From a virus: a stretch of DNA of 64,000 bases. The stretch lies in the IMG/VR virus record IMGVR_UViG_3300021962_000082, positions 1 through 64,000 of that record. One strand, given 5' to 3'. The notes below the pieces were generated by a model. That model ran no database searches and was not told where the DNA came from. It saw only the letters and a program-made list of their open reading frames with translations. Both the position numbers and the translations under genes were made by a program. This document shows positions 15,297 through 61,730 of this stretch, piece after piece (position 1 is the first letter of the stretch; the number at the start of each line of letters is the position of its first letter).

Positions 15297-15326
15297 AAAA
15301 CCCCACACAAAGTGGGGTTTTTTTGT
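15297..15326 (+). terminator. Intrinsic terminator
   Basis: AAAACCCCAC (15297-15306) and GTGGGGTTTT (15312-15321) form a perfect stem around ACAAA, followed by a run of Ts. Confidence 0.88.
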
Positions 15327-15328
15327 GG

Positions 15329-15357
15329 TTGACGAATATTCAGCTTTTTGCTATAAT
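15329..15357 (+). promoter_or_regulatory. Sigma70-like promoter (distal) for AAA ATPase gene
   Basis: TTGACG at 15329-15334, 17-bp spacer, TATAAT at 15352-15357. It starts just after the terminator T run and would give a leader of about 115 nt to the GTG at 15480. Confidence 0.75.
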
Positions 15358-15420
15358 ACGCAGCATAAAAACAAGACAAAACTGTTGCTTTTACGCAACA
15401 ATCCAACCCCAAATAAACTA

Positions 15421-15449
15421 TTGACCAATAATGGCTCATTTGCTATAAT
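15421..15449 (+). promoter_or_regulatory. Sigma70-like promoter (proximal), duplicated element
   Basis: TTGACC at 15421-15426, 17-bp spacer, TATAAT at 15444-15449. From the -35 box to the Shine-Dalgarno sequence (15421-15475) it is nearly identical to 47609-47665, with only a few substitutions and a 2-base indel. Confidence 0.82.
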
Positions 15450-15479
15450 AATGGCATAGTAACAAAACAGGAGTTAAAA

Positions 15480-43010: not shown

Positions 43011-44111
43011 ATGTCAAAAGCACAATATAATTTAAAAACTAAAACCGACTATCTCAATCGCAAGATGTTTTTGGATCCTGCGGGCCCAGTCACGATTCAA
43101 CGATTTGAGGAAGTCAAATACAACAAGCTGGTTAAGTTTGAGCAAGAAGCTCGCGGCTTCTTTTGGATACCCGAAGAAATCACACTTACCAAAGACGCTA
43201 ATGACTTCAAAGAAGCCAGCGACACCGTTAAACATATTTTTACTTCTAATCTACTACGTCAAACCGCACTTGATAGCTTACAAGGTCGCGGCCCCACTCA
43301 AGTATTCACACCAGTTTGCAGTATTCCCGAGCTGGAAGCACTGATGTACAACTGGGGATTTTTTGAAACCAATATTCACAGCCGTAGTTATAGTCACATT
43401 ATTCGGAACATCTACAACGTACCCAAGCAAGTGTTTAACACCGTTCATGACACGCAAGAAATTATTGACATGGCATCCAGTGTGGGCTTGTATTATGATC
43501 GTCTACACATGATCAACTGCCGCAAAGAGTTGTTGGAGCAGTTTCCCGAACAAGAACATGTCAAAGCCATTTGGTTAGCATTAAATGCATCTTATGCATT
43601 AGAAGCATTCCGCTTTATGGTATCATTTGCTACCAGCTTGGCCATGGTGGAAAACCGTATCTTCATTGGCAACGGCAACATTATCAGTTTGATTCTACAG
43701 GATGAGATTTTACACAAGGAGTGGACTGCTTGGATAATTAATCAAGTAGTCAAAGAAGATCCGCGTTTTGCTCAAGCCCGTGTTGACTGTGAATCAGAAG
43801 TTTATGCCATGTTTGCTGATGTTATCCGTGAAGAAAAAGCCTGGGCCGATTACTTGTTTAAATTCGGACCAGTTATTGGATTGAACGCACCTATTCTCAA
43901 AGATTTTGTTGATTTTACTGCTGCCGCTGCACTCAAAGACATTGGCATTAGATATCAAGGTGCTGCTCCTAAGACTACACCAATACCGTGGTTTATGAAG
44001 CACGTGGATACCAGCAAAAAGCAAGCGGCACTACAAGAAAACGAAAGCACTAACTATGTTATTGGCGCCCTTGACGGGGAAGTTGATTATGACCAACTTC
44101 CGGACCTTTAA
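43011..44111 (+). CDS. nrdB: Ribonucleoside-diphosphate reductase beta subunit
   Basis: NrdB carries the di-iron-tyrosyl radical cofactor. The iron ligands lie in [22 protein letters not shown] (Glu and His) and in the [13 protein letters not shown] region (E/H). The C-terminal YDQLPDL is the usual tail that docks into NrdA. Length 366 is normal. The last 53 bases overlap a convergent GIY-YIG gene on the other strand. Confidence 0.93.
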
Positions 44112-44628
44112 CTAAAGACCAACCTTTAACTGATTTTTGGCGAGGATTGGCACCAAATAATGAATGAACATTAACTTTACAAAGATTATATTTTGTGTAT
44201 AATTCAACTTTGGTGCAATATTCAACGATGCCAGTGATGTGTTGAAACCCGTAAATCGTAAGGTCTGCCATTCCGTTTTTGATGCCTTTTGTTTTACTAG
44301 GCCTACCGGTCATTTTAGATCGTTGTAATTCTTTTTGTTTTTCTGTTCTAATAATGCCATCAGAACCTTCGCCGCCGTCAGTTAAATTTCTTAATATACC
44401 GGTTCCGTTGTCTTTACGACCATACCAACGGATTAGCTGGCGTTCGATTGCTAACGCACCAATATTGGTTAAATTCTGTTCGACTAGAATAATACGAGAT
44501 TTATCAGTCGGAACTGCAATAACTTTTTGGGTAGACCAGGCTCGTAGACCCTTGCCTTTACCTATATAATAAGGAGTTCCGTCCTTGCGCAAATAAGCGT
44601 AGACGTAAAAATTATTAGTTAAATACAT
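44059..44628 (-). CDS. GIY-YIG endonuclease (homing-type)
   Basis: The N-terminal catalytic domain has [20 protein letters not shown] (Y-V-Y and Y-Y-I-G of the GIY-YIG fold), an Arg in GLRAW and the catalytic Glu in [12 protein letters not shown]. The C-terminal part with KGIKNG and VKGWSLVKG resembles NUMOD-type DNA-binding repeats. The 3' end is encoded antisense to the last 53 bases of nrdB, so the final residues are shaped by nrdB codons. T4-like phages often carry such endonucleases near nrd genes. An exact minus-strand late box lies upstream. Confidence 0.85.
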
Positions 44629-47564: not shown

Positions 47565-47597
47565 AAAAAATGCCCCAATTTTTGGGGTGTTTTTTTG
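47565..47597 (+). terminator. Intrinsic terminator (potentially bidirectional)
   Basis: AAAAAATGCCCCAA and TTGGGGTGTTTTTTT form a stem over a short T loop, with A and T runs on both sides. It closes the virion unit and isolates the next early unit. Confidence 0.85.
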
Positions 47598-47608
47598 GCG
47601 AAAAACGG

Positions 47609-47637
47609 TTGACCCAAAATGGCTCATTTGCTATAAT
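47609..47637 (+). promoter_or_regulatory. Strong sigma70-like promoter, copy of the 15421 element
   Basis: TTGACC at 47609-47614, 17-bp spacer, TATAAT at 47632-47637. It shares ATGGCTCATTTGCTATAATA and the following leader up to CAGGAGTT with the promoter at 15421. Confidence 0.82.
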
Positions 47638-47669
47638 AATGGCATAGGGTAACAAAACAGGAGTTCTAA

Positions 47670-58760: not shown

Positions 58761-59225
58761 CTATGCTTGTAATCCGGGCAGGTAGACAGTTTTCTTGTCT
58801 TTTGACACCGCTGTTAGCATTTCTTTTTTAAGATTTGCTGGATTATATGACACATGTACCCATCCTGAGCTTGGTACGCCTGGAGTATAAAACTCTAATA
58901 TCAATTGTGTAAAATCTAAATTATCAGCAATCCAATGAGCCAAGTCAGCATTGCTAATGCCAGGAATTTCGATATCAGCAGCCATTCCCTTAACATGCTC
59001 GCTGCTGGCAGAACCTCGAGCTGCACTATTAACCGCTGGTGATCTGTAGCCGCTGTTAACATGCACACCACGGCCGTAGTGATCGCGAACTGGTTGTAAA
59101 ACATTTTCGGCCAGTGCCACCATGTTTTTAATTTCTGTGTCTCCGGGTGTATTGTCCAAGTGATTGCGTAGTGCAACATCACTTTTTGTCATTTCATCTA
59201 ATGTAAAGTTTTCTGATAATTTCAT
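58761..59225 (-). CDS. M15-type peptidase, probable endolysin
   Basis: Peptidoglycan-cleaving M15 (VanY/D-Ala-D-Ala carboxypeptidase-like) enzymes bind zinc through H-x6-D and H-x-H-type residues. Here SEHVKGMAADIEI gives H77 and D84, GWVHVSY gives H124, and SGYRSPAVN is the usual preceding motif. The 154-residue length is typical of phage endolysins. There is no signal peptide, so it needs the holin. The ATG at 59225 follows AAAGGA, part of the 27-bp repeat discussed under findings. Confidence 0.88.
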   Translation of the reverse strand: MKLSENFTLDEMTKSDVALRNHLDNTPGDTEIKNMVALAENVLQPVRDHYGRGVHVNSGYRSPAVNSAARGSASSEHVKGMAADIEIPGISNADLAHWIADNLDFTQLILEFYTPGVPSSGWVHVSYNPANLKKEMLTAVSKDKKTVYLPGLQA

Positions 59226-59226
59226 T

Positions 59227-59253
59227 TAATCCTTTGGCATTGCCGTTTGTGCA
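59227..59253. repeat. 27-bp direct repeat, copy A
   Basis: Exact copy of 60080-60106 (starts TAATCCTTTGGCATTGCC). On the minus strand it contains the endolysin Shine-Dalgarno sequence and what looks like the last codons of the gene at 60079-60519 plus a TAA stop. Confidence 0.95.
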
Positions 59254-59271
59254 AAATAAACACATTAATAA

Positions 59272-59279
59272 TATTTATT
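59272..59279 (-). promoter_or_regulatory. Late promoter-like box AATAAATA (minus) for endolysin
   Basis: TATTTATT on the plus strand, inside the inserted segment and about 47 bases before the endolysin ATG. It could restore endolysin transcription cut off by the insertion. Confidence 0.35.
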
Positions 59280-59294
59280 TTGTTCTAATTCTAT

Positions 59295-59302
59295 AGTAAA
59301 TA
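59295..59302 (+). promoter_or_regulatory. Late promoter-like box AGTAAATA for desaturase
   Basis: Two mismatches to TATAAATA. Predicted +1 is 59308, the A of the desaturase ATG, so the transcript would be leaderless. Confidence 0.4.
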
Positions 59303-59307
59303 GTGTT

Positions 59308-60039
59308 ATGTTAACGTTTATAATTTCTTATATTTTTTTTGTCCTATGGGCTTGGTTACAAAATACGTACCTTCACCGATCTTTATCCCATAAACAACTT
59401 GAGTTTCATCCAATAATGGTACAAATTATTAAAATAGTAGCTTGGATGAGTCAACGACGATACTACACAGACTGGGGCAAAGTATGGGTAGCAGTACATA
59501 GAATGCATCACGCATATACGGACACAGATAAAGATCCGCACTCACCACACCACAAGAGTTTTACAGATATTTTGTTTCTGAAACGTCGTCGATTGACCAA
59601 CGAAGAAATTGAATCTTGGACCAAAGATGTTAAAATAACAGTTACTAAATTGGATAAATTAATGGAAAAATTACCAATTGGGCCGGTTGTATTTCTAGTA
59701 ATTATGGTATCTTTATTTTCTTGGATCGGATTTTTAATTTGGTTGGCCTGTATTAATTCACATTACCTTATTACATCCTTTAACTACGTAACCCATGGTA
59801 AAATACCAGGTTACACTAACAGTCCTAATGCAAAATCTGACAAATCAAAAAACATACCTTATTTAGTATTTGCTTATTTAGGTGAAGACTTACATGCAAA
59901 CCATCACAAATGGCCAACTTCGGCTAATATGGCTGTAAGGTGGTGGGAAGTTGATTTTGGTTATTGGATTTTGAAATTTCTTTCACTGTTTGGTTTAGTA
60001 ACATTTAATAAAACTGCGCTGCTGGAAAAGACAATTTAA
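59308..60039 (+). CDS. Acyl-lipid/acyl-CoA desaturase (membrane di-iron)
   Basis: Membrane fatty-acid desaturases insert a double bond using a di-iron centre. All three histidine boxes are intact: HRSLSH (23-28), HRMHH (64-68) and HANHH (196-200), with the preceding TYLHR and DPHSPHH contexts of the stearoyl-CoA desaturase group. Membrane helices lie at about 1-17 and 125-150. The 243 residues are short but hold all boxes. It is the only plus-strand gene between minus-strand lysis genes and is bounded by the 27-bp repeats. Confidence 0.88.
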   Translation: MLTFIISYIFFVLWAWLQNTYLHRSLSHKQLEFHPIMVQIIKIVAWMSQRRYYTDWGKVWVAVHRMHHAYTDTDKDPHSPHHKSFTDILFLKRRRLTNEEIESWTKDVKITVTKLDKLMEKLPIGPVVFLVIMVSLFSWIGFLIWLACINSHYLITSFNYVTHGKIPGYTNSPNAKSDKSKNIPYLVFAYLGEDLHANHHKWPTSANMAVRWWEVDFGYWILKFLSLFGLVTFNKTALLEKTI

Positions 60040-60059
60040 GTTTATTCTGATATAGTGAT

Positions 60060-60087
60060 AAGGATTAGGACTTCAATCCTAATCCTT
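60060..60087. terminator. Bidirectional terminator between desaturase and minus-strand gene
   Basis: AAGGATTAGG (60060-60069) and CCTAATCCTT (60078-60087) pair perfectly around ACTTCAAT. The right arm is made largely from the first bases of repeat copy B. Confidence 0.7.
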
Positions 60088-60519
60088 TGGCATTGCCGTT
60101 TGTGCATCCCATTCATACAACTCGATTTGCGTATCTGCGTCGGTTGGTGTTTTGCTCTTTTTAGCTACCATGCGCTTGCCTTCTTTTTGCGCCTTGGTAC
60201 CTTTTTCCAGTTGTTCTTGCGACTGCTTGGTCCAGGGAATACGACGGAACACTGGATAATCAACATCGGGTTCTATAGTTAGTAGATAAATCCAGGGCTT
60301 GGCATTTTTAGCATACACAACTCGAAAAGAGTCGTCTTCGGGCAAACCATCTTTGGGTTGTCCCCACAAGTCATTTACCGTATGCCAACTAAACGCAACA
60401 TTGAATAACAAGAACGGAACCAGGATGGACATTAGTATTGGGTTCCATTTTTCTTTGATCATAACAACTAACACAATTATGGTCAACAGCATTAAACTAA
60501 AAATTGCAAGTGCTAACAT
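60079..60519 (-). CDS. Small membrane-anchored protein downstream of ExbD-like gene
   Basis: ATG 60519 gives a 146-residue protein with two N-terminal membrane helices (LALAIFSLMLLTIIVLVVMI and LMSILVPFLLFNVAFSW), then a soluble domain ending TQIELYEWDAQTAMPKD. The frame extends to 60576 without a better start. It is the third gene of the ExbB/ExbD-like set and probably works in that complex. Its 3' end contains copy B of the 27-bp repeat. Confidence 0.65.
   Translation of the reverse strand: MLALAIFSLMLLTIIVLVVMIKEKWNPILMSILVPFLLFNVAFSWHTVNDLWGQPKDGLPEDDSFRVVYAKNAKPWIYLLTIEPDVDYPVFRRIPWTKQSQEQLEKGTKAQKEGKRMVAKKSKTPTDADTQIELYEWDAQTAMPKD
60080..60106. repeat. 27-bp direct repeat, copy B
   Basis: Exact copy of 59227-59253. 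It encodes the last eight residues (AQTAMPKD region) of the minus-strand gene ending at 60079; identity stops at once on both sides. Confidence 0.95.
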
Positions 60520-60523
60520 ATTT

Positions 60524-61231
60524 TTATATTCCTTCTGGGGCAGGCAAAGATGAATTAGTTGGCTCTGGAGCAGCATAAGGACGCACCAACCGTCCTGAGT
60601 ATTTCTTTGTTAATACTGGAACAATGTCCTCATCTGTTTCAGTAACATTAGAAACGTTCCCGTCGGCATTTACTGTAAATTTATAGTAATTGCGTGCCTC
60701 ACCTTCGTCAGTAAAATTCTTTGTTTGCTTGTAAATTATTGAGTAAGGATTAATCTTCTGTACCTCAACAGTAACTGGCAAACTGTCGTACATTTTAAAA
60801 TCTTTTTCGTGATCCTTAAACACTGGTTTTCTATACCAGTGTACAGAAATATAATATTCACCAGGCATCTTGCCGCGGACGGTTACTACTTCTCTATTGA
60901 CTTTTATAATCACTTCCTTACCGTCAATCTCCATTTTGTCTTCAAGAACACCACGATCGTCTCGATCTAAGTGTATTAGTGGTGAGTCTTTTCTTGTGAA
61001 TCCCACAACGTTCATATCGGGACCACGAACCCAAATGTCGATATCGTCAGCCGAATCTTCAGGCCACGTTAGTGCAATAATAAATTCAGCAGGAGTAATA
61101 ATGTCACCCTTTTTAGCAACGGGGTTGATCATTAAGAACGCAATTAAGAATAAAAATACGAATCCAACAAGAATGTTGAATAACAAGTCTGTAAATGCTA
61201 CAGTACTTTTAAACTTTTGTGGCGAGTCCAT
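60524..61231 (-). CDS. ExbD/TolR-like protein
   Basis: Residues 11-36 form one membrane helix with the pore aspartate near its start, AFTDLLFNILVGFVFLFLIA (D15), as in ExbD/TolR/MotB-type stator subunits. The rest is a beta-rich domain of about 195 residues (LTWPEDSADDIDIWVRGPD), on the outer side of the membrane by analogy. It overlaps the MotA/ExbB-like gene by 23 bases, so the two subunits are co-translated. The 235-residue length exceeds usual ExbD (about 140). Confidence 0.72.
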   Translation of the reverse strand: MDSPQKFKSTVAFTDLLFNILVGFVFLFLIAFLMINPVAKKGDIITPAEFIIALTWPEDSADDIDIWVRGPDMNVVGFTRKDSPLIHLDRDDRGVLEDKMEIDGKEVIIKVNREVVTVRGKMPGEYYISVHWYRKPVFKDHEKDFKMYDSLPVTVEVQKINPYSIIYKQTKNFTDEGEARNYYKFTVNADGNVSNVTETDEDIVPVLTKKYSGRLVRPYAAPEPTNSSLPAPEGI

Positions 61232-61730
61232 CAGCGTAATGCTCCAAGTTCACCAGCTGACTCTTTAAGAATATACTTGCAACTAAACCAACCAGTGTGG
61301 TATACAATGCTGTACTCATTCCCAACGCCATGCTGGCCAGTGCTGTTTGTAAACTTTGTGTATTGGAAACGTCGATGTGACTAAATGCAGTCCCGAGCAT
61401 TAATAAGAAGCCAGCCACCGTTCCAACCATACCCAATGCTAGGCAAGTTTCTGCCAAATACCATCCAATTTTAGAATTGTTTTGTATGTCGGACGCAGTG
61501 GTTTTTCTGTGCCATAATCCAATTAATACAGATCCTAATACCCACATTAAAACAATAACAAAACTAAGTTTAGTTTGGTCATGTTGCCAAATTAAACGAT
61601 GTGCATCAAAATATACTGCAATAGAAATTAAAACTGTTTGAATGCACACCATTAGATACCAAGTCATAAATGCTTGTTGTGGTGTTACTGTTGTTATTTT
61701 TGCTAACCATCGCACTAAATTTTTAATCAT
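61209..61730 (-). CDS. MotA/TolQ/ExbB-family proton channel protein
   Basis: The family builds proton-driven stators. Signature region: ETCLALGMVGTVAGFLLMLG (94-113) and ALASMALGMSTALYTTLVGL (130-149), the two conserved helices of MotA/ExbB. N-terminal helices lie at about 20-40 and 55-75. At 173 residues it is short but has the full core. It is followed by the ExbD-like partner, which supports the assignment. Confidence 0.8.
   Translation of the reverse strand: MIKNLVRWLAKITTVTPQQAFMTWYLMVCIQTVLISIAVYFDAHRLIWQHDQTKLSFVIVLMWVLGSVLIGLWHRKTTASDIQNNSKIGWYLAETCLALGMVGTVAGFLLMLGTAFSHIDVSNTQSLQTALASMALGMSTALYTTLVGLVASIFLKSQLVNLEHYADGLATKV

Follow-up and report, generated by a model that had tools for sequence, protein, structure and literature searches.

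Exact 27-bp copies of a gene end flank a desaturase gene apparently inserted into a large phage genome

How virulent phages insert foreign genes without the help of transposons is an old question, because the junctions are usually too worn to read, and a review of T4 phages describes such junctions as typically lacking mobile-element signatures (PMC2993671). We investigated a locus that raises this question in a 64,000-nucleotide stretch of the virus record IMGVR_UViG_3300021962_000082 (hereafter the window), where a fatty-acid desaturase gene lies antisense to its neighbors and between two identical 27-bp sequences. Here the junction is fresh enough to be read, and its tolerance by the phage can be explained by duplication of a segment that two abutting genes share. 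The window covers part of the genome of a large, uncultured aquatic phage: the best relatives of a 600-aa gene at 850-2649 lie in contigs as long as 344 kb, Pseudomonas and Escherichia phages with genomes of about 285-375 kb give weak matches, and no DNA-level phage match was found in the annotated collection.

The two sequences, copy A (59227-59253) and copy B (60080-60106), form a direct repeat with 27 of 27 bases identical and the copies 853 bp apart. When the whole 64-kb window was simulated with a Markov-1 model, direct repeats arising by chance reached at most 14-19 bp in 50 of 50 runs, and a chance origin of the 27-bp repeat is rejected. Copy B, read on the minus strand, forms the authentic 3' end of a 146-aa gene (g146, 60079-60519); it consists of the last 27 bases ahead of the final base of the TAG stop and encodes AQTAMPKD together with the first two stop-codon bases. 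Copy A, on the same strand, ends GGATTA and is followed directly by AATG, which holds the start codon of an endolysin gene; it contains the Shine-Dalgarno sequence AAGGA, now serves as untranslated endolysin leader, and when read in the g146 frame encodes the same tail followed by a different stop (AQTAMPKD-TAA). The initial annotation of this DNA, which had reported the identity, the place of copy B at the end of g146, the position of copy A before the endolysin and the shared reading of the tail, was confirmed in each of these particulars. An in-frame stop lies 12 codons ahead of the TAA of copy A, which therefore stands outside any longer translated gene. No third copy of the 27-mer with up to three mismatches is present in the 70,474-base record, a second contig or five large relatives (0 expected), so that the count is two copies in everything searched. 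The second contig, 46 kb of metagenomic sequence that is 99.99% identical to the window over 9.7 kb, has the same repeat-desaturase structure and probably belongs to the same phage; as the two contigs agree on the structure, an assembly slip is unlikely. Some two thirds of copy A has no known function today, and in view of this the perfect identity suggests either a recent event or conversion between the copies.

The origin of the repeat can be read from its coding content. The membrane protein gene g146 is the third gene of an exbB-exbD-g146 series on the minus strand, preceded by genes for an ExbB/TolQ/MotA-like proton channel subunit (61209-61730; PF01618, E 4.1e-8) and an ExbD-like protein (60524-61231), the latter recognized by alignment and through its 70 viral loci; neither the ExbD-like nor the g146 protein of the window has a Pfam or NCBIfam match. 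With the ExbD-like neighbor as query we recovered 70 viral loci and retained 80 bacterial loci, and in nearly all of those examined the order is exbB, exbD, g146 homologue, with the last gene directly after exbD. The g146 protein of the window ends in AMPKD before its stop. An [IVMWL]-P-K motif occurs within the last 18 residues of 18 of the 54 distinct viral homologues (including AIPKD, IIPKN, VPKG, and EWMPKK), and MPKN or WPKD stands just ahead of a fused lysozyme domain in eight more, while a PK ending is absent from 28 of the 54; most of the 79 distinct bacterial homologues end in PEK. Since the 27 bp encode a C-terminal motif common to distant homologues, the repeat originates from the end of g146, with copy A as its displaced duplicate. 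Similarly, in three viral loci (L100, L103, and L105) AAAGGA lies within the codons of a PKG tail, and the next gene begins at the stop codon; this is the same dual use, as coding end and as ribosome-binding site, that is made of the g146 tail in the window.

The initial annotation had further proposed that g146 and the endolysin gene were adjacent before the insertion. The endolysin is an M15 peptidase (58761-59225, minus strand; PF08291, E 1.4e-18; phrog_894 endolysin, E 1.9e-40), and joining the two flanks at the repeat yields two intact genes 0 nt apart, namely a 146-aa g146 ending in TAA and then the endolysin ATG. In other phages, eight distinct g146 homologues are fused in frame to a GH24 lysozyme (PF00959; three were tested and gave E 1e-42 to 1e-50), which makes an endolysin beside g146 a recurrent arrangement. 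An M15 endolysin also lies just upstream of exbB in L100, L105, L111, L113, L114, L126, and L133, and in most phages the next gene after g146 is not an endolysin. The tail motif, the joining of the flanks and the GH24 fusions all support the proposed adjacency, and insertion between once-adjacent g146 and endolysin genes is well supported.

Apart from the near-identical contig, neither the desaturase nor the repeat is found at the g146 site in the other 54 distinct viral homologues, and in no relative does the desaturase occur there unaccompanied by the repeat. Searches of viral contigs with g146, with ExbD, with an ExbD alignment and with a degenerate junction pattern returned no empty-site relative: the only relative matched by g146 peptide patterns was the near-identical contig, the junction pattern returned that contig and chance matches only, and the nearest ExbD among the viral loci is 48% identical to that of the window. 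The large relatives identified through the 600-aa structural gene gave no ExbD or M15 match in runs that lacked a positive control, although a desaturase query did work on these records. The search for an intact junction in relatives, suggested by the initial annotation, thus gave g146 relatives without a desaturase at this site and no empty site. With no empty junction at hand, logic and the distant homologues are the grounds on which we infer the direction of change and the order of events.

The exbB-exbD-g146 unit (60079-61730 in the window) is itself conserved in many phages (L086-L154) and in bacterial chromosomes (L155-L234). The fusions of g146 to GH24 lysozyme and the M15 genes beside exbB suggest that a proton-driven motor may be tied to lysis or to opening of the envelope; a literature search returned no paper on exbB-exbD-g146 as a lysis-linked unit. 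In bacteria the unit can lie near quinoprotein-dehydrogenase genes (L166, 2009-6786; neighbors in L176 and L226), and a SoxYZ-like carrier (TIGR04557, E 1.9e-62) is encoded near it in L166. A gene for an SbmA/BacA-like transporter lies just downstream of the unit in L092 (6258-7226; PF05992, E 1e-137), and similar ORFs were recognized by eye in L089, L091, L097, L146, and L149.

The unique piece between the repeat copies (59254-60079, plus strand) is 826 bp long and has a G+C content of 32.7%, compared with 36-43% in the neighboring genes. Its sole long ORF is the desaturase, and it encodes no transposase, as had been noted at the outset, and no endonuclease (in Pfam and PHROGs its ORF matched desaturase and a family of unknown function and nothing else); no inverted pair that could represent terminal inverted repeats is present at the two insert junctions. 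Between the convergent desaturase and g146 genes, fold energies and a hairpin scan identify a hairpin with a perfect 11-bp stem and a 6-nt loop (60060-60087), the right arm of which is made of the first 8 bp of copy B and 3 bp of the insert. Its fold energy in context is -18 to -21 kcal/mol, perfect stems of at least 10 bp occur at four distinct loci in the 64 kb as against 0.6 hits expected, and the hairpin is absent from every other viral contig searched. Two features of the piece fared less evenly under closer analysis. The hairpin described as a terminator built partly from the repeat does use copy B for its stem; the case for a terminator is weak, with no T-tract after it on either strand. 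Of the late-type promoter boxes described on both strands, the minus-strand box AATAAATA (59272-59279), which lies inside the insert 54 nt upstream of the endolysin ATG, fits a motif of this phage: 13 of the 17 ATAAATA sites in the window precede a predicted gene start by no more than 80 nt, where about 2.9 would be expected, and ATAAATA is a credible candidate for its late-type box. The plus-strand box AGTAAATA (59295-59302) is doubtful as a late box, being only 5 bases from the desaturase ATG. Sigma-70-like sites are no commoner than in shuffled sequence.

The desaturase itself (59308-60039, plus strand; 243 aa) has all three of the His boxes ascribed to it, HRSLSH, HRMHH, and HANHH, and matches PF00487 above the cut-off (E 1.3e-9; 38.7 bits against 29.7); the NCBIfam DesA family matches with E 2e-34, below that family's cut-off, and the acyl-CoA desaturase 4ymk with E 1.3e-4. 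No close homologue was found in viral contigs or in annotated phages, the matches in the latter being a 26%-identical desaturase of Pelagibacter phage Mosig and one further match, weak and partial. Five large (jumbo) relatives (L324-L328) encode desaturases that are 26-29% identical to that of the window, at another locus and mostly in one shared neighborhood. A first tree groups these five in one clade (99/100) and leaves the window sequence outside it, in a tree with fewer rows the clade was not resolved, and an AU test rejected a single clade of the five plus the window sequence (p 0.022), the window desaturase being a long branch whose place in the tree is therefore unsure. With the same reservation about the long branch, the trees and the AU test disfavor vertical inheritance of the jumbo-phage desaturase with movement within the genome. 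The simplest reading of these sequences is a separate acquisition, probably a second and independent desaturase gain in a phage group that already carried one. Desaturases seem to be a stable trait of this phage group, and the shared neighborhood in most of L324-L328 contains a small ORF that looks phasin-like by eye.

As a whole explanation, we consider an illegitimate, microhomology-guided insertion with duplication of the shared segment to be probable. The minus strand of the ancestor would have carried exbB-exbD-g146-endolysin, the end of g146 doubling as the endolysin ribosome-binding site, and a foreign piece with the desaturase would have entered exactly at the g146/endolysin junction, leaving the 27 bp on both sides, with copy B keeping g146 whole and copy A keeping the endolysin start signal. 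The duplication could be the product of a template switch, a component that on its own stands about evenly between right and wrong: a growing 3' end would leave the recipient after copying the 27 bp, copy the donor cassette, and resume on the recipient at a point 27 bp upstream, its return guided by an 8-bp match, TAATCCTT. This match is present at the right junction, between the insert hairpin arm and the recipient target, and may be a coincidence or a later change; at the left junction there is no testable microhomology. The cassette would bring with it the hairpin between the convergent genes and an outward-facing late-type box, a putative promoter able to drive the endolysin gene that is now cut off from its operon. 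Because coding tail and ribosome-binding site are the same 27 bp, only insertions that duplicate this segment would be tolerated; selection would have kept the outcome since a split or loss of the 27 bp would break one of the genes, and the insertion would be viable since the insert has a full copy of the shared segment on either side and itself supplies the outward late-type promoter box. In T4-type phages, illegitimate junctions at microhomology and 3'-end invasion have been proposed for gene additions (PMC2988022, PMC2993671).

An exact direct repeat of the target flanking an insert is also the expected trace of a target-site duplication, in which a transposase or staggered-cutting nuclease acting in trans would cut with a 27-nt stagger, the cassette would be ligated and the gaps filled, and the window does contain an ORF with a GIY-YIG look by eye (44059-44628, minus strand) as a possible source of double-strand breaks. 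We regard this origin as unlikely given that the 826 bp hold no transposase and no terminal inverted repeats, that no second such insertion was noticed in 233 viral loci (1.68 Mb), and that 27 bp is long in comparison with known target-site duplications. A single Campbell-style crossover with a circle or other phage DNA in which the 27-bp g146 tail already lay beside a desaturase would yield the same final structure, and such homology-based capture is favored by the action of phage recombinases on short or diverged homology (PMC2327257, PMC3945230). It requires, however, a donor with a g146 tail joined to a desaturase, and with junction and hairpin in no other contig and no close desaturase homologue known, we judge it quite improbable.

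The repeat might instead have nothing to do with insertion and be a regulatory element, that is, a leader or promoter cassette comparable to the repeated early promoters found elsewhere in such phages. The Shine-Dalgarno sequence does sit in copy A, and several other repeats in these phages resemble promoter leaders, but the two copies are the only ones in all searched sequence at up to three mismatches, no promoter box lies within them, and what they contain is the coding end of g146, including a motif present in distant homologues; this reading has very little to commend it, and a dispersed regulatory repeat is rejected for want of a third copy. A survey of the 233 viral loci showed that the other repeats of at least 20 bp that were examined are promoter leaders, internal gene repeats or paralogues, and among them the repeat-bounded arrangement that the initial annotation had thought might surround other cargo genes was not seen.

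Insertion with a duplicated shared segment belongs to a known process, the moron-like gain of cargo by phages without a transposon, and what is new is its unusual and readable scar. With phage morons the insert has in common that one additional gene stands between two genes linked in function and is absent from relatives (here, from the viral g146 loci, which are distant relatives), and it shares with them a hairpin, a promoter-like signal and lower G+C; it differs in the exact 27-bp gene-end duplication at its flanks and in a hairpin without a T-tract. To our knowledge, usual morons show no scar of flanking duplication. Insertion-sequence target-site duplications likewise place a direct repeat of the target around the insert, whereas here transposase and inverted termini are lacking and the duplication is unusually long. 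Illegitimate double-strand-break repair and ectopic insertion in T4 are similar in their microhomology junctions and lack of transposon signatures (PMC2988022, PMC2993671); in the present case, by contrast, the junctions are readable, the duplicated segment explains the survival of both neighbors, and no homing endonuclease is tied to the insert or, as in a homing element, encoded within it. The PeSL promoter-terminator cassettes of T4-type phages (Arbiol 2010 and Comeau 2014, as cited in PMC4503421) resemble the locus, as far as that citing account describes them, in linking gene shuffling to a stem-loop and a promoter beside the moved gene. Set against the same account, the repeat here is a coding end and not a dispersed early promoter with stem-loop, the promoter-like box is late-type and outward-facing, and the hairpin and the 27-mer occur nowhere else in the searched records.

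The scar provides a signature for searches, in which the tail of an upstream gene is copied ahead of the downstream gene with cargo between them. It also leads to the prediction that recombination between the 27-bp repeats would excise the insert precisely. The empty site, whether as ancestor or as excision product, would read GGATGCACAAACGGCAATGCCAAAGGATTAAATGAAATT on the minus strand, preceded by the coding sequence of g146. It is in our view a long shot that large phages regularly gain cargo through template switches that step back at overlapping gene junctions, where an insertion into a stop codon that overlaps a ribosome-binding site would survive by duplication of the shared segment. If true, shared-segment scars would mark recent gene acquisitions genome-wide, and repeats of 20-30 bp would also permit precise loss of cargo, making genes switchable in the population.

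Elsewhere in the window, an early promoter with a ribosome-binding leader occurs twice (15297-15479 and 47570-47669), with 30 and 17 bp exactly repeated. Both copies have a terminator hairpin with a T-run before them and different genes after them, and are PeSL-like cassettes in appearance.
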